A stretch of 64,000 bases of DNA from Cucumis sativus (Eukaryota; Streptophyta; Magnoliopsida; Cucurbitales; Cucurbitaceae). Within the stretch, counting starts at the first letter, position 1. The number at the start of each line of letters is the position of its first letter. This document shows, one piece after another, positions 507 through 32,200 of this stretch. The position numbers were made by a program, and so were the translations under genes. The stretch spans positions 9,176,001-9,240,000 of the forward strand of contig NC_026657.2 of assembly GCF_000004075.3 (NCBI RefSeq). The letters run 5' to 3'. The notes below the pieces were generated by a model. The model was not told the origin of the DNA and ran no database searches. It was given only the letters and a program-made list of their open reading frames with translations.

Positions 507-3500
507 TCAACCTGTTTGTTGGAGGCCCTTTGATTTCTTCTTCTTTAGTTCATCAGTAAGAACTTGAATGGAATCAGAGACTTCAGCTTTGTAGATATAA
601 AATTTGGAAATGAGCAAAAAGATGAAGAGGTTAACAGAACTCATAACTGCAAGTAAAGCATAGAAATAATCAAGATGAGAAGCATTCAAGTTGTTCAAAA
701 TCCATCCATTGCCCTGTCTTTTGGTAATCTCAGAAACTTTTGAAAGAATAAAACTACTGAGGAAGTTCCCAATTCCAAGTGAGGTCATAAAGTATGAACT
801 GCCAAGACTTTTCATGTTTTCTGGTGCTTGATCATAAAAGAATTCATTACTGGCTATTTGAAGGAATGCATCAGCAACTCCTGTGAGGATGAATTGAGGG
901 AGGAGAATGAAAATGGTCAAAGGAAGTTCTTTTTGCACTTCTGCTGATGACCCATATTTTGCTGCAATATGAAGTCTATGCTTTTCCACTTGAGATGCAA
1001 CTGTCATTACTAAAACATGGCAGATCATTCCAATTCCCATTCTTTGTAACATTGTGATTCCCCTTGGATTTTTGGTCACTCTCTGCATTATCTTCACAAA
1101 GATTCTATACCAAGAAATGGAAATGAATGTTTTAGCTAAGGATCATTTCTTACTTTTACCTTTCTAGTTCATGAGGTTTTTTGGCACTTATTCTAAACCA
1201 AAAGACCATCAACATCAAGCAAAAACAGAAACGACAAAGTCAATGATATAAAGACTTCGGGTTATAAATGACAACTTAGGACCAAAATGCATGGGCTAGA
1301 AAAGGGGTTTGACTTGGCCCAAGCCAACATATTCGACCTCAACCAAGGCCGAGGCTGAGGCGAAGATCAAGGTTGAGGCCGAGGTTGAGGTTGACGCTAA
1401 CAAAATGTCAAATGTGGCATGCCTCAACCTATTGAATCAAAAGATAACCGTAATGCAATTCTGAAACTCTATCAGAAAAGACTTATGTCAACTATACGTA
1501 TAAATACAGCATGATAGTTCATGAGAGAAAGTAAATTCATTTTTATACTCAAATTTTCAACTGGTTGCGTAGATATTATTTATAACTTAAGCATCATAAC
1601 TTCTGTAGCAAGTACCACGTAAGTGTATAGATATAAATTTACGAATCGTTATCACATAAATATCAAGTCTATTTTTCTAATTCAAATTTTGACATCAACA
1701 AAGTTTGGACAACGGCATGTGCTCAAATTCGTGCAGTCTTAACCAAGTTTAGAAGATACTCAATTACCTGTCATAGATGAGAATGGTGAGAAGCATGGAG
1801 ATGGTGACAAAAGCATATAAACTAGCAGGAGGGACTTTGAAGTGGCTGCCAATGCTTCTATCCAAAGTGGTGCCTTGTTTGATAAAAAGGGTGTGTGACT
1901 GTGCCACCATTGTGCTTGGTAAGAAAGTGCATACCATAATTGGTATCATTCTCACCATTTGTTTTGTCTCCTCCACTTCTGTCACTGTGCATATCCTCCA
2001 TGGATCACTTGAAACTCCTCTTAGAGCTGCCTTATTCAGAAACCTACATATTATACAATTCTGAATGTATTAAAACCTTGTTAAAAGAATTGTATTGATA
2101 GAATTATCAGATAAATTAAACATAGCATTAATTCAGCTCAAAATTACCAATTGACGATAACAAGAGTAATTGAGATACTACAACCTCAAATACTCGTTTG
2201 GGTTTTACAAGCTCTGGTGCCATACTAGAGAAACATGATATTCTAAAGTGGTGAAACCTCCCTATCTTTTCAACTTGGGATCTTCACCAGAAACGAAGAC
2301 TAAAGGAAATCATTGGATTTCATCATTATAAAAAACACATTATCAAGGCTTAAAAAATCAAACAAAACAGACTTTAAAAGTAGTGATTAACGTCATCTCA
2401 CCTCAAGGAAGGAGTGGAATCAATCTTGAAAGTTCCATTCTTGGAGTAATGTTGAAGGTCAAGCTCATATAATTGATTTGGGTCATTAGGAAGAGGAAGC
2501 CTCCAATTCCAAGTAGCAGCAACAATGACATTAGCCATTTTAATGAAGGGACTTCCACTAGGAAGCTTATGCCTATAAAAGGGAGTGCCAACAACAAATA
2601 TAAGAATGGCAACACCCAACCCAATAGTGGGAATTCCATATCCTAAGCTCCACCCAACGTTGTCCTGAATGTAAACCAAAATAGTAGAGGCAAAGAGAAT
2701 GCCAGAGAACACACTAAACAACCACCAGTTGAAGAAGGACAGCTTTTGGGCCTTCTCCTTCGGATCAAAATCGTCGAATTGGTCAGCTCCCATCGTCGAG
2801 ATGTTTGGTTTGGTCCCGCCCGAGGCAATTGCCAACAAGTAGAGAGAGCCAAAGAACATGGCTAACTGTAATTTAGAGGCTTGCTTGCAATTTTCTTTAC
2901 TAATGGCTGTTGAACATGGCGGTGGTTTTAGGCTTGGGATTGACACTGTCAGTGTTAGAAGAGACATTGCCTGTAGTTATGTCAAAATATAGTTTTAATA
3001 TAGACAACAACAAATATAACAATATGTCTTAAGTATTAACATATAAGACACTATGTAAAAAAATTCATGAAATATCTATAAAAAAATGTCAATTTCGATT
3101 AATGTTTTTATTTATGTTATATAATTTTATGAATTTTTGTACAATAAAATAAAAATATCAATTCATTACATATATCGATATTGGACTCATTTTAATTGGA
3201 AATTGAGAAAGTTATTTTTATTTTTATTAGTATTGAAATCTATGTACGTCAAAAAATTAAATAAAATTAAAACCAATAATTATGAGGTAGAAGTTTTAAC
3301 AAAAAGGAAGGAAAAGCCTTGGAAAAATAAAATAAAATATAAAGAGTTGGTGGCACGTACACGTTGTTACCTTAACAGTTAACACCCATTGTTTATATTG
3401 TATCCTAAGTTCCACTTGGATCTCAATTCCATACCCTCATCTTCACTTTTCTCCAATTAAATTTCTTTTCCAAGTTTAGGAGTACTTCAAATATAATCCT

Positions 3501-3954
3501 CACATACAGTACATACCATAAAGCAAACGAGGGAGGAGATGAAGAAGGTGCGATAGCGACCAAGATGAGCATCCGCCACATAAGCCCCCAGGATAGGCAT
3601 AATCCAAACGGTTCCCGTCCAATTCGTGACATTGTTCGAGGCAGTGAGAGTTCCTTGATTGAGCTTAGTAGTCAGATATATAATGAGATTGGCAGCAATC
3701 CCATTGAACATCATTCTCTCGATCAGTTCGTACCCTGAAAAAAAAAAAAAACTTAGTTACCATCGGGTGAAGTCAACGGCGGAAATTTAACTGAAAAAAA
3801 GAAAGTTATATATACCGAGGATGAAAGAACAGGCTTTCCACCGCCCGGTTTTGGAGCGGAGAACGGCGTTGCCCTTCCAATCGACGGTTCCATCTTTCGT
3901 GTAGTTGTCTACGTCGAGTACTCCTGCTTCCTGATCTGCTGCAGCATCCGCCAT
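507..3954 (-). CDS. NPF5.2-like: NPF5.2/PTR3-like NRT1/PTR-family transporter, copy 1
   Basis: Proton-coupled transporter of the NRT1/PTR (NPF) family. Members carry peptides, nitrate or other small solutes across membranes, and the substrate here is unknown. Exons, in order of transcription, are 3954-3816, 3734-3517, 2970-2402, 2043-1768 and 1104-507. They close in frame to 599 codons plus TGA. The start is the first ATG, giving MADAAADQEAG. Visible landmarks are the ExxER motif as ELIER in the first membrane helix, LGAYVADAHLGRYRT, GGTKPNISTMGADQFDDF, KLSFFNWWLFS, and FFYDQAPENMKSLG near the C-terminus. The length is normal for the family. It is the most downstream of three same-strand tandem copies and lies closest to the left edge. 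The first helix (ERMMFNGIAANL) differs from the ERxAYYG of copies 2 and 3. Intron 4 (1105-1767) is larger than in the sister copies and holds a repeat-derived segment. The NPF5.2 assignment rests on remembered resemblance to Arabidopsis PTR3. Confidence 0.9.
1230..1720 (+). mobile_element. Probable degenerate LTR-retrotransposon LTR in intron 4 of NPF copy 1
   Basis: This intron is 663 bp against 370 and 104 bp in copies 2 and 3. It contains a GAGG/GTTGAGG-rich minisatellite (about 1330-1395), then TATAAATA at about 1500, then AACTTAAGCATCATAACTTC and GTACCACG near 1585-1620. The order TATA box, ACTTAAGCATC, GTACCAC recalls the R/U5 part of plant Ty3/gypsy LTRs as I remember them. No primer-binding site, coding region or target duplication was identified, so a solo or truncated LTR is an inference. 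Confidence 0.4.
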
Positions 3955-5801
3955 TACTGGAGAAGGATAAGAAGCTGTAGTGGCTGTTTTTATTTGCTCT
4001 ATGAAGCAGCTCCAAACACAAGGAGTATTTGTTTATGAAACGTTAGACCACACATCACCATTGCTTCTCTTTTATTTTTTATGATATGATTTAAAATACT
4101 ACTTTCCTCCACTATTTTTTATTTTTAATTTGTAGGTTATTTGTATCTATATATAACCAATAATCATTTCCATTATTTTTACTTTTTAAAAAATAAAGTC
4201 ACGTCCATACTCGAGTTCGTTTATTATAGTCCACTTACATAATCAAACTAAAAATAATTTGCATCTCAATACTTCAAAATATCTTTATCCTTCACTGTTA
4301 ATGGAAATGGAAGGTGTAGAATAATAATGTTAGTATGTAGAAAGTATTATGCTTATGAATTAAATATGAGTTTGTTTCTCTTCCTCACGAGGCCTTAATG
4401 AGTATTATATTATAATTGGTGTTCATATCATTTAACATATTTAATCTTTTTTCTTAAGTATATTTAGTCAAATTGAGGGCTATTATATAGTTAATATTTG
4501 CATCTGATGTTTGACATTTGGGTTTCCTTTTAACTTTAAACAACATGCAAAATAGTCATAATTCCAATAATTAATTTACATTTCTATATAACATATCTTT
4601 GACTAACTAATTTCAAACAAAATAAAAAAGTATTTTAGGGGTTATAATGATAAAAGTTGATCTAATTCATGTATATTTTTAATGACAAAAATTAGAGATA
4701 GGTGAATGACGTTAATTATACATAAAATATAGTTTTATAGTATCATTAACAATATCTAGTAGGTTAGTATATTAATTGATATTTACAAGTGGTTTCATAA
4801 ACAAATGCATTAAAACTTAATTTGAGTTTAATTCAATATTGTGATAATTGATGTATTGAGTACAAACATTTTTATGGTTTTTGTATATCAAAACCCTAAT
4901 TTTAATTTGGATTTAAAATTCAAAATTATATTAAAAGAATCAAATGTTAATAAATATAATATTATAAACTTAATTATGTTTTTTTTTTCTCTAAAATTAA
5001 GACATGTACTATAAATTTTATTATATTACCAAAGAATAATAAATTTTATAAACATAAAACATAGTCATAAATAATTAATTAACAATAGTTTCTTGAGTAT
5101 GGATACAACTTTATTTTGATTAATAAACTAATTGTTTTAGAACTACCTAGCTATTTTTTCTATATTTTTAGTAAATTTATCATTTGAAATTGCTTTCTTT
5201 TTATAGAGTACTATAGTGAAATTTTTATTTCGGTCAAAAATGTCATTGTAAAAATTGTTGACCATGGGCATGATTAGTGGGAAGAAGAATCTTAATCTCC
5301 CAACTTCGTCATGGCAAACGTACTTAAATTTTAATTATATTTTATTATTTATAGTTCCAATTATAGATTTTAAATTAACATTAACATTAAAATTTTATTT
5401 TTCTATATAATTACTTGATATCAAAATATCTAAAATAAATATATCTCTCGATGCCTACGACAATAAAAAAAACGATCAGTCGATAAAATATGATAAAATC
5501 AAATTCCAAATTTTATTCTTTTCCTTTTCTTTTATATCTAAAAGCAATGTTACAACACACCCTTAGAATATTTAGTGAATGGAAAAAGAAAAATACTACA
5601 TACATATGTCAAAACACAACAAAAGTAAAGCTTCCTAAGTATACATATATATGTCTATATATATATATATAGTAAGAAATACTTACCTAATTCGCTTGTA
5701 CTTATCTTCTTACTGACCACCATTAAAACTTTGACATCTATATTCATCTTTGTTGATCGTCAAAAACATAATGGTGGTCAGTAAGAACAATGGCGATTCA
5801 T
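3955..5801. other. Intergenic spacer between NPF copies 1 and 2
   Basis: No coding exon was recognised. The left end is the promoter side of copy 1 and the right end is the 3' side of copy 2. The stretch is AT-rich, with a TA microsatellite near 5644-5672 and a strong foldback at 5707-5787 that is listed separately. Confidence 0.6.
5707..5787. repeat. 81-bp foldback with perfect 19-bp arms, in the 3' UTR of NPF copy 2
   Basis: The left arm TTCTTACTGACCACCATTA (5707-5725) is the exact reverse complement of 5769-5787. Inside a 4 x 4 internal loop a second stem pairs TTTGAC (5730-5735) with GTCAAA (5759-5764), leaving a loop of about 23 nt. It begins 14 nt after the stop codon of the minus-strand transporter, so it should be transcribed in its 3' UTR. 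It could be a small MITE, a mRNA stability or processing element, or a small-RNA hairpin. Confidence 0.85.
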
Positions 5802-8800
5802 TCAACCCTTAAATTTCTTGTCCTTGAGTTCATCGGCAAGAACCTTAATGGAAGTAGAAACTTCGGCTTTATAGACATAGAGTTTGGAGATGATCAAGAA
5901 AACAAAGAAATTGATGGTACTAAGAACAGCAATTAAGGCATAGTAGTAATCAAGATGAGAAGAATTGAGGTTGTTGAGAATCCATCCATTCCCATTTTTG
6001 ATAGTGATGTGAGAAACTGTTGAAAGAAGGAAAGTACTAAGGAAATTCCCAATGCCAAGAGAAGTCATTGAGAATGAAGTGCCTAAGCTCTTCATTGTTT
6101 CGGGAGCTTGGTCATAGAAAAACTCAATCTTTGCTACTTCCATGAAAGCATCTGCTGTTCCCATGAGCATGAATTGTGGGAGGAGTGTGAAGATGGTTAA
6201 GGGAAGAACTTGTGGTGATCCATTTTCTCTAGCTACTTTAAGTCTATGAGTTTCAATTCTTGATGCAATTGTCATTATTAAGATGTGGAGAATCATTCCA
6301 ATTCCCATTCTTTGTAGTAGTGTGATTCCTCTTGGATTTTTTGTTATTCTCTGCATTACCTTCACAAATACCCTGTTGATTCAAGTGGAGAAGCATATCA
6401 AACATCTGCTTATTTTGTTGAAACAAAACAGAGTTATTGAAGTTGCAACTGAGAAATTTGAACAATATAACTACTTAGTTTAGTTTGTTATGTAATATGA
6501 TTCAAAACTCATGTTTAAGTCAACTCTAATATCCCTATGTACTATATGCATACATTTTTTTTTAAAGTTCTCCACTTCGATTTTACTGTGTCTACGAGTG
6601 GGAGCCCCTGATTTACAGTAACAAAAAGTGGGGTGCACTGTAGACAGAAATTGAGGATGCATGATCAAGACACATCAAAATATAAAAAGAACTTTATGAA
6701 GTAGTGTAGAAATTGGGGTATCATAATTACTTGTGGATGTACCTGTCATAGATGACAACACTGACGAGCATGGAGATGGTGACAAAAGAAGCTAAACTTG
6801 CAGCAGGGATTTTGAAGTGGCTACCAACACTTCTGTCCAAAGTGGTGCCTTGTTTTATGAAAAGGGTGTGTGTTTGAGCCAACATTGTGCTTGGGATGAA
6901 TGTGCATATTAGAATTGGTATCATTTTTAGTATTTGTTTTGTTTCTTCCACTTGGGTCACTGTGCATAACTTCCACGAACCTCTTCTTACAGCAGCCTTG
7001 TTCAAGAACCTACACAAATATATAAATGCACATATATATTATATTTTGTCTCACAAATTCAATCATTAATGAAACATGAAGCTTAAAAAGGATATTAAAA
7101 GCAAAATTTCAAGAACTTACATCTAAAAGTTGAATTAATATAATTGCATGAGATCATACAGCAGGAAAAGTGAAAAGTGCAAATAATGCAAAGAAAAAAA
7201 AAAAAAAGAGAGATCACCTAAAGGATGAAGTGGAATCAATCCTAAAAGTTCCTTGCTTGGAATATTCTTCAAACTCAAGTTCATGAAGTTCTTTAGGATC
7301 ATTAGGAACAGGAATCCTCCAATTCCTAATAGCACCAACAATGACACTAACCATTGTAGTGAAAGGGCTTCCATTAGGTATCTTGTGCCTATAAAATGGC
7401 GTCCCAGCAAGAAATATCACAATTGAAATGGCAAGGCCAATTGTTGGAAGTCCATACCCCAAGCTCCATCCCACATTGTCTTGAATGTAAACCAAAATTG
7501 TGGTGGCAAATAGAGTCCCAAAGAATATGCTGAACATCCACCAATTGAAGAATGACAACTTTTGGGCCTTCTCTTTCGGATGGAAGTCGTCGAACTGGTC
7601 CGCTCCCATTGTCGATATGTTTGGCTTTGTGCCCCCGGTCCCAAGCGCTAGCATGTAGAGGGCGCCAAAGAACACTGCAAGCTGTAACGTCGAGGCTTCC
7701 TTGCAGTTTTCTTTGTTCACGTCTGAACATGGTGGTGGTTTTAGACTTGGCAATGATACTGCTAGTGTTAGAATTCCCATTCCCTGTCAAAATATCAATT
7801 ATACCTTAATACTACGTTTTACTGATTAAATAAGTTTAGAGGTAAAGAATCAAATTATATGTAATTACCAAATTTGGATTTTTATTTTCAAGATTGATAA
7901 AGCAACTCAAGCTTTATCTAAGACCAAAAAATCTAGACCTTTGAATACAACATGAATATTAAGAAATTTTTTATGTATGTGGATACTTACAATACCATGC
8001 ATGTGTCAAATTTCAATTACCACTTAATTATGCTATGGTTAGTAACTAAATCAATATTAATGAAATAATATTTGAAAAAATTGGTTGCAACCCAAAGTAC
8101 CCAAACAAAACATTTCCATGTGCCATTTTTTTTTAAAAAATAATTATTTATTAATTCATATATGTATTTTTTAAAATATTTTCAAATATAACAAAACTTT
8201 AAATTTATTAATAATATTGATAGATTGAAGTCTATCGATAGTTATATTAAATTTTGATATTTTAATTCCTCTATGCATTCTAAACATTTGAAAAGTGAAA
8301 TTGTAAATTATCATAATTTGACCTAACGATAAAAAAGAGATATAGTGTCGTTAACTAAGTAAGAGGTGAATTATCACATATATTTTAAAAAAAATAAAAG
8401 GGTAAGGACAAACATTGTGGGAATACATAGAAATGATCAAGTTGTATTACTTTTTAATAATGGACAAAAGCATTCATCCGTCCCAAGAAATTGATACCCA
8501 TTTCTTGACTTTCAGCCCCCATAATTTAAGACCACAGATGACTACTACTACTACTTGCGCCGAGCCATAGCACACAACACAATATTTCTCTCCAAATTCA
8601 TTTTGAACTTTTTTGTTTGTTTGTTTTTATCTTGTTTCCATTTCTCAAAATATTCAAAGCTCCAACATCAATTAAATGTATATAGCCTTATCCCATATTC
8701 CAGGCATCAATTATAACTTTTATATTATTCCCTTCTCATCTTTTTTTTCTTCAATTCTAAACTTTAGTTTTACCCTCCCAGTTTGAATTATTTGATTTTA

Positions 8801-14597: not shown

Positions 14598-17500
14598 CTA
14601 CAACAAATTAAAGGGGGGCAAGTGCCCTCTTCCTTCATCAGCTCTGCCTCTCATCATAGCTGGTTTTTCGTTTATGTTGGAGGCCTTAAGTTTGTCACTC
14701 AACACTTTTATTGAATCAGATACTTCTGCTTTGTACTCATACATTTTGGACATGACCAAAAAGAAGAAGAAGTTGATGGCACAAAGCACTGCCAAAAACG
14801 CATAGTAGTAGTCAAGATGAGAAACGTTTAGGTTGTTCTCAATCCATCCATTCCCATTCCCATTCCCATGTTTCTTTGTAATGTGAGAAACTGTTGAAAG
14901 AAGAAAACTACTTAGGAAGTTTCCGATTCCGAGCGAAGTCATCGAATACGAAGTGCCTAAACTCTTCATGTTTTCTGGTGCTTGATCATAGAAGAATTCA
15001 ATCTTTGCTACTTCTGAAAATGCATCAGCAACTCCCACAAGCATGAACTGAGGGAGGAGAGTGAAAATGGTCAGTGAGAGTTGTTCTTCATTTTTTTCCA
15101 ACCCATTTTTTCTAGCAACATGAAGTCTATGCCTTTCAACCAAAGATGCAATTGTCATTATCAAGATATGGAGAATCATCCCAATTCCCATTCTTTGTAG
15201 CAGTGTGATTCCTCTTGGATTGTTAGTTAGTTTCTGCATTATCTTGACAAAGAACCTTCCAGAAAGAAAACACCAAGTTAATGGTATCACAAAAAATCAA
15301 TCTTCAAGGCTTCATATATGACTTGACTTGTAGCATTGTACCAATAAGTTTTACCAAACCTGTCGTAGATGATGACACTGATTAGCATGGAGATGGTTAC
15401 AAAAGCAGTTAAACTTGCAGGAGGGATTTGAAATTGGCTACCAACACTTCGATTTAGCGTCCTGCCTTGCTTGATGAAAAGGGTCTGCGCCTGTGGCAAC
15501 ATTGTGCTTGGAATGAATGTGCATATCAGAATTGGGATCATTCTCAACATCTGTTTTGTTTCCTCCACTTGGGTCACTGTGCATAGCTTCCATGAATGAG
15601 TTGAGCCTGTTCTTATGGCAGCTTTGTTGAGGAACCTGCATTTGCAGTCAAGAAATCCCATATATTGTACTCAATACATACACCAATCCAGGAACTCCAA
15701 GATTTTCTACATTCATAAACACTTCAAAACCAAGTTCAAACTAATTACTAGGATTCATACATATTGATTTTTATATGAAACATAACTACTAGGACAATAG
15801 CTTCCATATTTCATATTTTTACTTGCGTAGATATCTATAGTATACTTTTGCTTTTGGTTTCACCTAAAATGGTTCGTTGACAAATGAAGTAGTTGTGATT
15901 TATATACCATGAATCTTTTCTACCTTTGATCACTGTGTGACTGTGTAATTTGGATCCGAAAACAAACGAATGTTGGGTATGACAGCATATGCAAGTGATT
16001 CTAATTTTAGAGATAGTGACCTTAAGGATGGAGTGGAATCAATCCTGAAAGTTCCTTGCTTACTATACTCCTCAAGCTGAAGCTCATAGAGTTGCCTAGA
16101 GTCATCAGGAATATCCTGCCTCCAATTCCAAGCAGTAGCTACAATGACTTTAGCCATCCTGATGAAAGGGCTTCCAGTGGGGAGTTTGTGCCTGTAAAAG
16201 GGTGTGCCAGCAGCAAATATGAGAATGGCTATTGCAAGGCCTACAGTGGGAATGCCGTATCCCAAGCTCCACCCCACATTCTCTTGTATGTAAACAAGAG
16301 TGGTGGTGGCAAAGAGAGTGCCAAAAAAGATGCTGAACATCCACCAGTTGAAGAAGGATAGCTTCTGGGCCTTCTCTCCGGGATGGAAGTCGTCAAATTG
16401 ATCGGCTCCGATTGTGGAGATGTTTGGTTTGGTTCCGCCCGTGCCGAGAGCCAATATATAGAGTGCGGTGAAGAAGATGGCAAGATGTAGCCTGGAGGCC
16501 TGCTTGCAATTTTCTTTATTCGTGTCCAAACATGGAGGGGGCTTCAAGCTTGGCATGGACACTGCCAGTGTTAGAAGAGACATTCCCTGTGAAATTAATT
16601 GTGTGTTTGTTCCTATTAGAGTTTAGAGTAATGTTGTTATCGAAATGCAGCTCTTTCTTTGTGATTCGTTTTGAGTTTTGGCAAATTGCTCATCAACTCT
16701 GTTTTTGCCATTGATTCTATATCAGATTTACTTATGTCAATACTGTCATTTTGTGTATCGGTTCCTATTGGGATATGAAAAACAAGTACTTCGTTCAAAA
16801 AACAGAAAACAATTACATTCTTTTCTAGCTTCCTGATCAATGTCATGAAACTTCGTTCATTTTTCTCACCATCTTCCTTTTGAACTCTTTTGTCTCTACT
16901 TTTCCTTCCCTGCACTTCATTTTCAATATATTTCTTTCCTCTCTCTTTAAACCTCAACATCAGAAACTTCTTCGTTTTTTACATTGGCAAATTCTTCATG
17001 CATGTGTTTATCATCACACAAAGGAATCTAATGGACAAAATTCTTAATTCAATCACAAATACTATCCTACTTTTAAATTCAACAAGGCACCACTTATCTT
17101 TATGAAATAAATATTAAATTGTTTTTTCTTCTTTTTTTTTTTTTTTGTATAATTACAATAAATGAGAATAGTGTAAGATCGAAAGATACCTAATTATCGT
17201 CTAGAAACAACGGTAAAAATTTTAGTTATATTTACTTTTTGTTTGGTTACTATTTTGTTTTGTAAAATTAAGTCTATAGATACTACTTTTAACTCTCAAC
17301 TTTTTTTCTCTCTTTATTATCTATAGTTTACCCATATTTTAAATGCAAGTGATGTAACTTTTTTGTTTTTAATTAGGAATTCAACTATTTTACTTGAAAA
17401 ATATGCAAATTCTTCTAAGAAATAGGTAGAGAAAAGACATAATTTTTTAAAACAAAAATAAAATGATTATCAAACGAGACCTTGAAGATTTCAATTTTAG

Positions 17501-23673: not shown

Positions 23674-26138
23674 ATGGGGTTATCCCTTCTACGAGCCATG
23701 ACCTCCGCCTCCGTATCCACCTCCGCCGCTCGCCTCTCTATCCTTCCCAGACGCCTCTTCTCCTCCTCGTCTACTCTTACACATCCTACTTCGCCTTCTT
23801 CTTTCACTCTCCGCCGTCGATCTCTCCCTCTGCTTTCCCATGCCGTTCGATCTATCCCTTCCACCTCCAGGTTCGACTCGTTGCGTTGCTTTTCCTCTAG
23901 GCCTGGTAACTCCTCTTACTCTCCCCTTAACTCTAATTCCAACTTCAATGAACGTCCTCCCACTGAGATGGCGCCTCTTTTCCCTGGATGTGACTACGAG
24001 CACTGGCTCATTGTCATGGACAAACCTGGTGGTGAGGGTGCCACCAAGCAGCAGATGATTGATTGCTATATTCAGACTCTTGCTAAAATTGTTGGCAGGT
24101 ACTGTTTTTTTTTTATTATTATGTGATGATTTTATTCTTCCTGACTTTTTTGCGCGTGGGTTCTGATTTGATTTTGTCCCTTTTTGTGTTTTGAGCAGTG
24201 AAGAGGAAGCAAAGAAGAGGATTTATAATGTTTCTTGCGAGAGGTATTTTGGATTTGGCTGTGAGTTGGATGAAGAGACCTCCAACAAGCTCGAAGGTCT
24301 GTGTGATGTTTTGAGGTCAAGTGTAGACAGTTTTCTAAGGCATTGATAAGTATTTGATGTTTTTTGTTTCAATCTTTCTGAACAGGTTTGCCAGGTGTTC
24401 TGTTTGTTCTTCCTGATTCTTATGTCGACCCAGAGTATAAAGACTATGGGGGTAAAAATCTTACTAAAATTTTTCATTGTGGAGATGAAACATAATTCCA
24501 TTCCGGCCTATACTACACTAACATTCATTTGAACATACTATGTTATATTATATTGGCCTGTTTACGCATTGTTGTAACCGTAAAGTCCATCTTGGCAAAA
24601 CTATTTCAGTCTCTTAGACTATGTTTAGTTTTGAATGCTAATGGACTGACAATAAATGTCACTCTTGACTGTCCTGCACTTTATATTTTTTCTGGAGACG
24701 CAGGTCAGTAGAGTTGAAACATTATTTATGTTTAGCACTGCATTGAGATGTGTGTTCTAACTATAATAGTCCTTCTCCTTATTATTGTGTTCATATTTTG
24801 TATATATTATCTTGACATGTTAAAAGGTGCAAGAAGCATGAACTGTGGATGCAAACAGGACAAGCTAGGATAAAATCCATCTTAGCATAGGCAAATCTTT
24901 CATTTAGGCAGTATTTAGTTTTGAATGCTAAAGGACTCGCATCAACTGCACTGTAGACTGTTGTGAGTCTTACTTGTATTGTGGGGATTCAGGTCAATAG
25001 AGACATACATTGATTATGTGGATATTAATGAAAGGGTTACAGTCCATCTTGGCAAATCTAAATTAGTCCTATGGACAATGTTTAGCTTTGAATGCTAATG
25101 GACTTACAACAAATGTCTCTCTAGACTGTTCTGTGCTCTTTAATTCTTTGTGGAGATGCAGATCAGTAGAGATGAAACATTAATGTCCGAGTACAATGTC
25201 TTTGAAGAATATATAATAATTTACTGTGACAGTATGGAAAAGTTTTTGAAGATAAGTGATTGATTGTTGAACGTGTACAGTCCATCTTGGCAAAGCTAAA
25301 CTAGTCTTTGACAATGTTTAGTTTTGAATGCTAATGGACTTACATCAAATGTCTCTCTTGACTGTTCTGTGCTCTTTTTACTTTGTAGAGATGCAGATCA
25401 GTAGAGATGAAACATTAAAGATCGTTTAAGTCTATATTCACAGTGTTTAGTTTTTATCTAAATTATGCCAAATACAGTTGTTTTCTTGCATGGCATATTC
25501 GTTAGTAGTTGAAGATGAAGCTTGTGGTTGAAAGTATGAACGAGAATGAGATCTTTTTCTCCAACTGGTTATTTAATTAATGTATATAGTCCATCTTGGC
25601 AAACCTAAATCAGTCTTCAAGACAATGTTTAGTTTTGAATGCTAATGGACTTACAGCAAATGTCTCTCTTAAACTGTTCTGTGCTCTTTATACATTGTAG
25701 AGATGCAGATCAGTAGAGAAGAAACATCCAATCTTTCTAATAATGTTTTAAAGTTTTATGATTGCAGTGATTACTTTTCAACGCTGATGAATTGTAACAA
25801 ATAGCTTTCTAGTACATCTTATATATTTGGTGGAGTTGGGAATATCTTTTTCACCTAATACCATGATTTCGTTCATAGAAACCATCTCAACTCATGGACC
25901 CTAATTTTGATTGCTCATATTTCCCTTTGTTAGTAGTTCATATATGATAAGTGTCCTAATGATTATGCTAACCCCATTGATTATGCTGGGTGCAGCTGAG
26001 TTGTTGGTGAATGGAGAGATTGTTCAAAGGTCACCGGAGAGACAGAGAAGGGTGCAGCCACAGCCTCAGAGAGCTAATGATAGACCAAAATATACAGACA
26101 GGACCCGCTATGTGCGACGCAGAGAGAATATGTCTTGA
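23674..26138 (+). CDS. MORF: Mitochondrial-type MORF/RIP RNA-editing factor
   Basis: Multiple organellar RNA editing factor (DAG-like/RIP family). These proteins bind PPR proteins and are needed for C-to-U editing of organelle transcripts. Exons are 23674-24098, 24199-24296, 24386-24451 and 25996-26138, giving 243 codons plus TGA. Residues 1 to about 75 are rich in Arg and Ser with almost no acids ([19 protein letters not shown]), as in a mitochondrial presequence; dual targeting cannot be excluded. The MORF box spans about residues 99-215, with [58 protein letters not shown] and [10 protein letters not shown]. The tail ([17 protein letters not shown]) is basic. The length suits the short members (MORF3, 5 and 6 type), but the exact orthologue is not settled. 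Intron 3 (24452-25995) is 1.5 kb and hosts an array of H/ACA snoRNA-like units. Confidence 0.93.
24584..24724 (+). ncRNA. H/ACA snoRNA-like unit 1 (MORF intron 3)
   Basis: This 141-nt unit has hairpin 1 closed by AGTCCAT/ATGGACT. Its pocket is CTTGG on the left and AATGCT on the right, the upper stem is CAAAACTA/TAGTTTTG, and the apical stem is AGTCT/AGACT. The hinge is ACAATA (ANANNA). Hairpin 2 contains CCTGC/GCAGG. The unit ends in ACA plus 3 nt. The pocket matches 18S rRNA AGCAUU-U-G-CCAAG. Pseudouridylation of that U is inferred. Confidence 0.75.
24874..25012 (+). ncRNA. Degenerate H/ACA unit 2 (MORF intron 3)
   Basis: Recognisable by ATCCATCTTAGC, TTTAGTTTTGAATGCTAA and GTCAATAGAGACATACATT. 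The lower stem has two mismatches, and the left guide is changed to CTTAGCATAGG, so the pocket no longer fits the 18S site. Probably a decayed copy. Confidence 0.55.
25041..25182 (+). ncRNA. H/ACA snoRNA-like unit 3 (MORF intron 3)
   Basis: This 142-nt unit has lower stem AGTCCAT/ATGGACT, pocket CTTGG and AATGC, upper stem CAAA-T-CTAAA against TTTAG-C-TTTG, and apical stem GTCC/GGAC. Box H is ACAACA. Hairpin 2 ends before GAAACATTA, which supplies ACA plus 3 nt. The same 18S pocket as unit 1 is retained. Confidence 0.78.
25279..25417 (+). ncRNA. H/ACA snoRNA-like unit 4 (MORF intron 3)
   Basis: The cleanest copy. The lower stem is 25279-25285 with 25334-25340, and the left guide CTTGG is 25286-25290. 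The upper stem of 11 bp (one G-U) pairs 25291-25301 with 25316-25326. The right guide AATGC is 25327-25331 and box H ACATCA is 25342-25347. Counting from the end of the upper stem, 15 nt precede box H, within the 14-16 nt rule for H/ACA guides. Hairpin 2 pairs TCTGTG with TGCAGA and CTCT with AGAG. ACA is at 25412-25414. Confidence 0.8.
25588..25729 (+). ncRNA. H/ACA snoRNA-like unit 5 (MORF intron 3)
   Basis: This 142-nt unit has lower stem AGTCCAT/ATGGACT, pocket CTTGG and AATGC, upper stem CAAA-C-CTAAA with TTTAG-T-TTTG (one mismatch), and apical stem GTCT/AGAC. Box H is ACAGCA. It ends GAAACATCC, so the ACA box has 3 nt after it. Confidence 0.78.
25755..25850 (+). ncRNA. Eroded sixth copy of the H/ACA unit
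   Basis: The stretch around TTTTCAACGCTGATGAATTGTA aligns with TTTTGAATGCTAATGGACTTACA of the good copies. It is followed by ACAAATAGC, TTTCTAG and TTTGGTGGAG in the matching order. The stems are lost, so it is read as a relic. Confidence 0.4.
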
Positions 26139-29246: not shown

Positions 29247-32200
29247 TCATCTTCTGAAAGGTTCAACTGGTGCCGACTCTTCAAGTAGAGTTGCAGCTTC
29301 AAAGCATTCAGCAACCTCCAATGCCGATGCTCCAGCGTCAGCTTTATATAGCATCCCAAGACTGTACCATGCAGATGGATTTGCTCGATCTAGTCGAAGG
29401 GCATCGGTTAGCAAGCTTCTTACCACAGGAAATGACTGACTACCACCTAGCTGTTGGAGAAGACGGGCAGTGGATATCAAGCTGGGAACATGGCCAGGAT
29501 CAATGTCCAATGCTTTGTTGTATGCTTGCAAAGCATCTCGTGGAAGACCCTTCGACTCGTAGAGTAAACCTAGCAGATTCATCATTGAATATAGATATCA
29601 CAGGCTCGATTACATTCTTTATTAACACACTTCAACGGGGCAATTTGAACCAAAACTAAATTGATTACCCGTAATGAATCAAAAAAGGAGAACCAACTCT
29701 ATGATGTATCAATTTAATTCTTGGTAAATTTCTACGCATCATGGAGAACGTGAATGGAGCAACTGATCTAAAAGTTAACAAATTGTGTGCACGCCAGAAA
29801 GTGAACGGAAATAATGTTTTACCTGTGGAATGCCACTTGGAAGCAGAATACGGATCGATTGCTTGCAATTTTGACAGACAGATCTCAGCATCCCGCCACT
29901 GAGACAAGCCTGTGTAAATATTGGCTAAGTCATGCCATGTATCTACTTCTAAACTTCTATCGTATTTTCTTACATCCTGCATGAAGGTGAAACAAAAGGA
30001 ATAAATGAACTAATTACTAACTCAGCTTGATGGTCATAGTTTCTGAAGCATGGATATGGATACAATTTTGTATGGATAAGGGATATGATACATAGATATG
30101 AAAGAAACATGGTGACAGCTTCGTTTTTTACAAATCTATGATAAAGATACGTTTGTTGAAATGAGTTTTTAAAGTATACATCATTCTTATACAATCTAAA
30201 AATTCAAACTCACTAAGTTCATGGATATACATATATGCTTAAAAAAGAGATTTATGTATTCTAAGCTTAAAATTTACAAATTTTGTCCTCATAAATGTTA
30301 ACATTAATACGATTTTGTACAACTAATATCTAACTCATATTAATTGTACTACCAAGTGCTCAATTTGTGGCCAACAAATGTCCGAGTGTCTAACAAGTGA
30401 TTTGTCAACCTAACCAACTAAATTATGGTATAGTTATTAATTCACAAGAACTACAGTGAGATGTTTCTAGACTCTAGATAGAAATCACTAGACTGTGATA
30501 TCTCATTCAAATATTTCACTTAATAAGATCAGAAGAAAAGGGTCCTAAAAGCCATTACCTTTGGAAGCATCTTTCCACTACTTTTGTTCTGGACTTGAAT
30601 TATAGCAAGAAGATGACTATATGTTTCTATACCGTTTTTTAACTGGCCTTGTGCAATCTGGAGCTTAGCTTTAGTTCGTAAGAGCTCGCCCTGTTCCCAC
30701 TTCCCTGTCTGCTCAAGAGCAGCATTGAGAACAGTCTCCGCATCCACAAACCATTTTTGGGCAGACAAGATTCTCGCCAACAATACATAAGATTTCAGGC
30801 TAGAGCCTGCCTCGAGTTTCACTAGTTGTTTTGCATAATATAGCGCAAAATCCAGCTTCCTCTGTTCGGCATATTCGATACAAAGATGATATACAATGAA
30901 TGGATCTCTTTGTCTCATCAGTTGCTCAGCAGTTTGTAGTGCCTTGAGTGCTTCAGATTGCTTCAAAGTTTTCTGAGAATCTGAAGCAACTAACTTGGAC
31001 ATAGCTGACAATAACACACCAAGTAAGCAATTAGCAACAGAAGCCAATTGGATGCATTTTCCATGCAGCTGTGAAAGAACTCTCATTGTGTAGGCCACTC
31101 CCTCATCAAGACAAACCAAATTTTCTCCACAGAGCTTAGAAGCCAGCAACAGTTCCAACATGCAGTCCACATTCTCTATGTTACTCAAGAAGTTCTTCAA
31201 AAGATTCAATGCAACTAAGCTTTTACCTTCCCCATAGTAACAAAGTGCTAGGATACAGTACTTTTCTTTTCTTCCTATAATTCCAGGAGGCAATTGTTCA
31301 ACCTCACTAGCTAGAGCTCCAAATTCCCCTGATACAGAAAGTGCAAAGGAGAGATGTTCTATTATTGATGGATCCCATACAATCAATCCAAGTGTATATT
31401 TTCTCATCAGATCCATTAACAAAAGAATGGCCTCTTCCATATTATTTCTTGGCACGAACGAGCTATCCATCTGTGAACGAAGATTTGGAGGACTTGCATC
31501 ACAACCACTATAGAGAAGGAATATTGCGAACTCTTTTTCTATTCTTGCTCTGGCTTCCATTTCTAGATTCCATTGATAGAGAAGCGCACGCCTATACGAC
31601 AAGATAGATTCTTGTGGAGAACCAGCAGATTTCCACAATTCTGGAAGTAAATCAACAGCCTTCGTTAGTGTCTCTTGCAATTTACAGTCATTAGCAAAGT
31701 TTTCAGGTAAGCCTTCTGGGAATGAAGATTCAACAGTGTCTAAAATTAGCTTGCACGATTTTGCGGCCTCTGCAGATCATAGACAAAAAGGAAAGATTAT
31801 GAATACAGGTTGGGGAAGAAAGGGTGTTTTGAAAACGTTAAATCAGAAGGGGAGAAGAGAAAAGAGAAAATACCGACATATCTTCCTAAACCGTGCAATG
31901 ATTTTGCTTTCAGAAAAATAGCTTCAAGAAGTAAACTAATGGCATGCATGGACATAGTAGGCACAACATTGCTTTGTGATTGGCGCCTATTTTGTTCATA
32001 TCTGGTTGAAAAGGAAGCTTTTATCCTGGAAATTACAGCAGCGATATCTATTCCTTCAAACACATGAAGAGCAGCTTCTATGTTACCCTTTTGATACTCC
32101 AGCCTTCCAAGTAAAGCACGAGCTTCCTAGAAAATTAAAAGGTGCTGTGGCTCCTCAGTTTCGTCAATACCATAAATCACATTTCAAATATCACCCTCTA

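Follow-up and report, generated by a model that had tools for sequence, protein, structure and literature searches.

The array described here lies within a gene of the MORF (multiple organellar RNA editing factor) family in the window, by which we mean the whole 64,000-nucleotide stretch of Cucumis sativus DNA that was analyzed. Reading of the spliced frame gives a host product of 243 aa with no inner stop and with GT..AG introns, the start codon being assigned as the first ATG of the open frame, and the joined host exons match the Pfam MORF domain (PF21864, MORF_dom) at 138.1 bits. The third intron carries five related blocks, c1 to c5, four of which are referred to as good copies. The gene, the copies and the proposed pocket strands of c4 are as follows.

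23674..26138, plus strand: host gene of the MORF family, recognized by its spliced frame and Pfam domain
23674-24098, 24199-24296, 24386-24451 and 25996-26138, plus strand: the four host exons, 243 aa
24452..25995, plus strand: intron 3, 1544 bp, GTAAAA...GTGCAG, with the whole array inside
24584..24724, plus strand: H/ACA snoRNA-like copy c1, 141 nt, H box ACAAUA, tail ACAUUA, z -3.75, 162.9 bits
24874..25012, plus strand: diverged copy c2, probable pseudogene, 61.5 bits, z -0.20
25041..25182, plus strand: H/ACA snoRNA-like copy c3, 142 nt, H box ACAACA, tail ACAUUA, z -4.38, 167.5 bits
25279..25417, plus strand: H/ACA snoRNA-like copy c4, 139 nt, H box ACAUCA, tail ACAUUA, z -4.77, 170.6 bits
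25286..25290, plus strand: predicted left guide arm CUUGG of c4, identical in c1, c3 and c5, pairing with 18S CCAAG
25327..25333, plus strand: predicted right pocket strand AAUGCUA of c4, identical across the five copies, with AAUGCU pairing with 18S AGCAUU
25588..25729, plus strand: H/ACA snoRNA-like copy c5, 142 nt, H box ACAGCA, tail ACAUCC, z -3.76, 164.6 bits

The preliminary description of this DNA had placed four blocks of 139-142 nt in sense orientation in one 1.5-kb intron of a MORF gene. All four blocks were recovered with exactly the boundaries first assigned, the intron measures 1544 bp, and the MORF domain is present. The arrangement, with several H/ACA-like copies in sense orientation in a single host intron, is by its sequence that of an intronic snoRNA cluster, the processing of which is predicted. 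Elsewhere in the window, three adjoining PTR2/POT-family transporter genes, each with two exon-size open frames, occupy 507-7786 and 14598-16622 on the minus strand, and a 415-aa open frame (stop to stop) lacking a Pfam match at E 0.001 lies at 30529-31776, also on the minus strand. A tRNA scan of the window found none.

First, we evaluated where the similarity between the copies begins and ends. Pairwise identity among c1, c3, c4 and c5 is 81-91%, and that of c2 to these copies is 69.5-74%; a covariance model built from the four good copies matches c2 with an E value of 3.5e-11 (61.5 bits). The spacers of the array measure, in order, 149, 28, 96 and 170 nt; the range of 28 to 170 nt proposed earlier is correct, but it fits only when c2, a fifth copy that had not been listed, is counted. 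That the blocks are alike and the spacers are not was borne out in a comparison of the four between-copy spacers and the two intron ends, in which matches between spacers did not exceed 10 nt at E 1. When the flanks were anchored on the blocks, identity was 27-57% in every bin from the first outside base. The abrupt loss of similarity at the block ends and the unrelated spacers suggest that the similarity is confined to the would-be mature RNA.

The box motifs are those of the H/ACA class. A hinge box of the form ANANNA is present in four of the five copies, and the H boxes of c1, c3, c4 and c5 vary at the fourth and fifth letters only, both of which are free in ANANNA. Each good copy also ends in ACA followed by 3 nt. 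The exception is c2, in which the hinge reads GCAUCA, the left guide reads CUUAG rather than CUUGG, the base stem is mismatched and the 3' end is ACATTG; c2 is probably a decayed copy, i.e. a pseudogene. Predicted folding agrees with the boxes. Fold z values, from 200 shuffles each, are -3.75, -4.38, -4.77 and -3.76 for c1, c3, c4 and c5, and -0.20 for c2 (folded as 24875-25012). All four good copies share a 7-bp base stem, AGUCCAU/AUGGACU, above which follow an upper stem, the hinge, the second hairpin and ACA plus 3 nt. The predicted folds of c1, c3, c4 and c5 show two hairpins and a single-stranded hinge, and that of c2 does not, so that the hairpin-hinge-hairpin-ACA layout proposed for the four blocks stands, with the boxes found in all four. 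In the minimum-energy folds the 5' pocket is largely closed, with paired hinge letters in c1 and paired ACA letters in c3 to c5; as judged by constrained folding, opening the 5' pocket costs 1.0 kcal/mol in c1, c3 and c4 and 1.9 kcal/mol in c5.

These observations bear on the possibility that a formerly functional snoRNA has left an array that now consists of intronic pseudogenes. Such a history would account for the plainly decayed c2, and expression of the copies is at present a prediction; against it, boxes, arms and stems are kept in four copies while the spacers have diverged past alignment, and the fold z is -3.75 or lower in all four. We therefore regard an array of pseudogenes as very improbable.

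Covariation adds little to the structural argument. Copy c4 served as the template for the drawn structure. Two registers of the 3' base stem were compared before one was adopted; the first gave five mispairs in c1 and was dropped in favor of one shifted by two, which gave three. In the four-copy alignment, 96.5% of the cells of the drawn 36-pair structure are standard, compared with 28-47% for slid versions. Two pairs are changed on both sides (UA to AU and UA to CG), both in c1 and both in the 3' hairpin; the choice of register, made after the c1 mispairs had been seen, partly accounts for the double change at columns 78/133. Of 500 column shuffles, 78 equal the alignment in double changes, 99 in percentage paired, 155 in covariation score and 394 in pair types. 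Because many shuffles do as well and there are four sequences only, the covariation is at most suggestive.

Second, we analyzed the genomic distribution of the block to evaluate whether it could be a tandem or dispersed repeat, or a transposon fragment, with an incidental hairpin. The blocks are indeed repeated, and the minus strand folds too, with z values of -2.59 and -4.26 for c5 and c4, the two copies tested. However, a search of the whole genome (226.6 Mb, 88 contigs) with c4 gave at least five matches, all inside this intron, and wide genomic dispersal, set beforehand as the observation that would count against an snoRNA array, was not seen. With five places only (a lower bound), all at one locus, a dispersed transposon is unlikely, and we rejected this assignment. 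A minus-strand RNA was likewise rejected: the minus-strand blocks fold, yet they end in GGACT or GGATT without an ACA tail. Moreover, the block ends coincide with snoRNA ends, and the ACA tail is confined to the host sense strand. Taken together, a repeat or transposon origin of the structure appears extremely unlikely.

Third, we compared the copies with known RNA families. A scan of the window against Rfam returned no match at the gathering threshold. The best sub-threshold match is to snR5 of S. pombe, an H/ACA family, at 30.1 bits (E 0.0075), which we did not accept as an assignment against a threshold of 80; SNORA2, at 17.5 and 16.7 bits against 70, was likewise rejected. The covariance-model check put forward earlier thus has a mixed outcome, in that all Rfam families stay below their gathering scores while the fold resembles that of H/ACA RNAs and the best match is itself an H/ACA family. 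The array shares with the box H/ACA class the two hairpins, the ANANNA hinge, the ACA 3 nt from the end and a pocket 15 nt from box H, and it differs from the box H/ACA families of Rfam in falling below every family threshold. Matches to microRNA families, also sub-threshold, reach 16-18 bits and could point to another structured intronic RNA such as a miRNA precursor or a splicing-regulatory structure. The thresholds of those families are 70-80 bits, however, and a layout of two hairpins, hinge and ACA occurs four times, which makes another kind of structured RNA hardly credible. The scaRNA mark is a CAB box, UGAG, in the apical loop; UGAG is absent from c1, c3, c4 and c5 and occurs once in the decayed c2, and the good copies thus do not qualify as scaRNAs by this motif.

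The 5' hairpin offers a candidate target. We scanned the uridines of 18S, 25S and 5.8S rRNA against every allowed pocket located 13-17 nt upstream of box H. A search of the assembly for intact rDNA found degenerate copies only, and provisional Arabidopsis rRNA sequences were therefore used; the 25S sequence is off in length, and the 18S sequence fits in length and shows 94.4% identity across 878 nt with a degenerate copy from the cucumber genome. A degenerate 18S plus 5.8S rDNA fragment lies on C2 near 12.84 Mb (positions 4561-5733 and 5968-6129 of stretch L009); it would pair incompletely with the guide because its target stretch reads AACATTTGCCAATGATG. Further 18S-like copies, on C5 near 12.41 and 12.92 Mb (L007 and L008), are 80% and 76% identical to the provisional Arabidopsis 18S and are probably rDNA pseudogenes.

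For each of the four good copies the top target is 18S U951, at -19.55 kcal/mol with 6+6 bp and a distance of 15 nt, and the runner-up over all allowed pockets is 5.8S U134, at -16.25 kcal/mol. In c4, the right pocket strand starts 15 nt upstream of box H, a distance within the roughly 14-16 nt ahead of box H or ACA that is usual for the class. With the loose choice of pockets, 34 of 300 shuffled rRNA sets match or beat -19.55 for c4. When the single stem-defined 5' pocket is used, the next real site reaches -8.64 and 5 of 1000 shuffled sets reach -19.55, a figure that is optimistic because the match was spotted by eye before the pocket was fixed. On these provisional rRNA sequences, and with the loose null of 34/300 in mind, the 5' hairpin thus presents a bipartite pocket directed at 18S U951. 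The 3' pocket behaves differently: its best value, -14.5 in c4, is reached or surpassed by 272 of 300 shuffles, and two fixed 3' pockets reach -10.46 and -6.51 at best on the same rRNA set. The 3' hairpin is an orphan pocket with no convincing rRNA target.

Conservation among the good copies is concentrated where the predicted pairing lies. The base stem and pocket strands of the 5' hairpin are invariant in 26 of 26 columns, compared with 106 of 143 overall, and the apical loops are invariant in 9 of 16 and 5 of 12 columns. The enrichment of invariant columns in the 5' stem and pocket has a hypergeometric P of 0.00016, the columns having been grouped after the target was seen.

The target position is one that is modified in human. 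We take Arabidopsis 18S U951 to be equivalent to human 18S U1004, since a working human sequence places GCAUU[U]G at 1004. This sequence agrees with all 54 of the modified positions up to 1004 in Table 1 of Taoka et al. 2018 (PMC6182160), where human 18S Psi1004 is listed as modified to 97%. Parts of PMC8522698 identify SNORA57 as the guide for human 18S Psi1004 and describe the yeast equivalent, 947, as lacking Psi; in an excerpt of PMC9886955, SNORA14A guides 18S U966, a different position. Under Arabidopsis numbering, which may differ by species, modification of plant U951 is not named in main-text parts of PMC8351944, PMC10743738, PMC10281867, PMC9483110 and PMC7464842.

As described in the same parts of PMC8522698, SNORA57 resembles the array in that the pocket of its 5' hairpin aims at the equivalent 18S uridine. 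Its pocket is non-canonical, with three unpaired nucleotides, whereas the pocket proposed here has two, and its 3' pocket acts on 18S 1045/1046, whereas no target was found for the 3' pocket of the array (PMC8522698). SNORA57 is absent among the nine Rfam matches up to E 10, a set in which only the best of related families is retained, and a common target with SNORA57 does not show common descent.

The copies could also be real H/ACA snoRNAs for which the match to 18S U951 is fortuitous, being either orphans or guides of another RNA (snRNA or mRNA). The loose-pocket null of 34/300 leaves room for this, as do the 3' pocket without a target and the restriction of the scan to rRNAs. On the other hand, conservation is highest in the base stem and guide strands, the four copies agree on a top target that coincides with a known human Psi position, and none of them contains UGAG. 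Based on these observations, we consider a fortuitous match unlikely; the 18S target is plausible, and the array would most likely guide a single modification of the small-subunit rRNA.

Arrays of this general kind are known from other plants. In maize, Zm-19 resembles the array in that a single intron holds several copies of the same snoRNA (five tandem repeats in a second intron); Zm-19 is a box C/D RNA with a 138-nt interval, whereas the copies here are box H/ACA RNAs separated by spacers of 28 to 170 nt (parts of PMC6172812, which also cite other work in which half of rice snoRNA families grew via tandem duplication). Rice clusters conserved in other plants likewise contain neighboring snoRNA genes, some with two or three members of the same family (U15a-U15b, U36), but nearly all mix families, whereas the array is of a single family (sections of PMC5122169). 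No MORF host is named for the rice clusters in those sections, and open-licence papers on MORF plus snoRNA describe no such array as judged by title and the start of the abstract. Since tandem and also intronic plant snoRNA arrays are in print, the array is another case of a documented plant pattern.

Nothing points to a role for the identity of the host. The genome contains 29 MORF-domain matches, two of them within the host gene. At other MORF loci, no related RNA was found in nine stretches (48,509 bases) that cover 26 of the 27 remaining matches, the best score being 11.9 bits (E 1.1); the comparison omitted C3:8693301, and long introns may extend past the stretches. Rfam gave no match on the same stretches. 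Clusters of MORF-domain matches at 24.742-24.766 Mb on C5 and at 15.815-15.818 Mb and 3.614-3.615 Mb on C6 are apparently tandem MORF copies. The suggestion that an organelle-editing host carrying rRNA guides is a meaningful pairing gained no support, as the predicted target is cytosolic 18S and the stretches around 26 of the 27 other MORF matches hold no related RNA. No finding favors a functional connection between the host and its guide. It is doubtful, and in our judgment improbable, that this array represents the first plant guide assigned to the equivalent of human Psi1004, amplified four- to five-fold, and that it ties expression of a cytosolic-ribosome guide to organelle gene expression.

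The H/ACA snoRNA-like identity of the copies is supported by their structure, boxes, boundaries, pattern of conservation, one-locus distribution and plausible 18S target. We propose, with good confidence, that the locus is an H/ACA array made by local duplication, with a 5' pocket directed at 18S U951 and one copy decayed. Repeated local duplication within one intron would have given rise to a homotypic box H/ACA array, of which one copy, c2, would since have decayed. Transcription would yield the array as part of the MORF pre-mRNA, from whose intron the RNAs would presumably be cut or trimmed; each good copy, from its sequence and predicted folding, would consist of two hairpins with an ANANNA hinge and ACA plus 3 nt. 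Box H/ACA snoRNAs are stable species of about 120-160 nt in complex with dyskerin/NAP57, NOP10, NHP2 and GAR1, and by analogy with the family a dyskerin/NAP57 core would bind the RNA. The 5' pocket, with CUUGG on the left and AAUGCU on the right, is predicted to pair with 18S AGCAUU-[U]G-CCAAGG over 6+6 bp, and the 18S U held there (Arabidopsis U951, the human Psi1004 equivalent) would be converted to pseudouridine.

With this array, the plant H/ACA RNAs gain a candidate family that goes unrecognized by Rfam and has a specific, testable target. The array also illustrates how a plant H/ACA gene missed by a model library can be revealed by simple inspection of repeats. The predicted target uridine is one that is pseudouridylated in human and not in yeast 18S rRNA, according to parts of PMC8522698. 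If confirmed, the array would (i) name a plant guide for the site equivalent to human Psi1004 and (ii) provide a system for varying the number of copies of one guide within a single intron, so that the effect of dosage could be asked.
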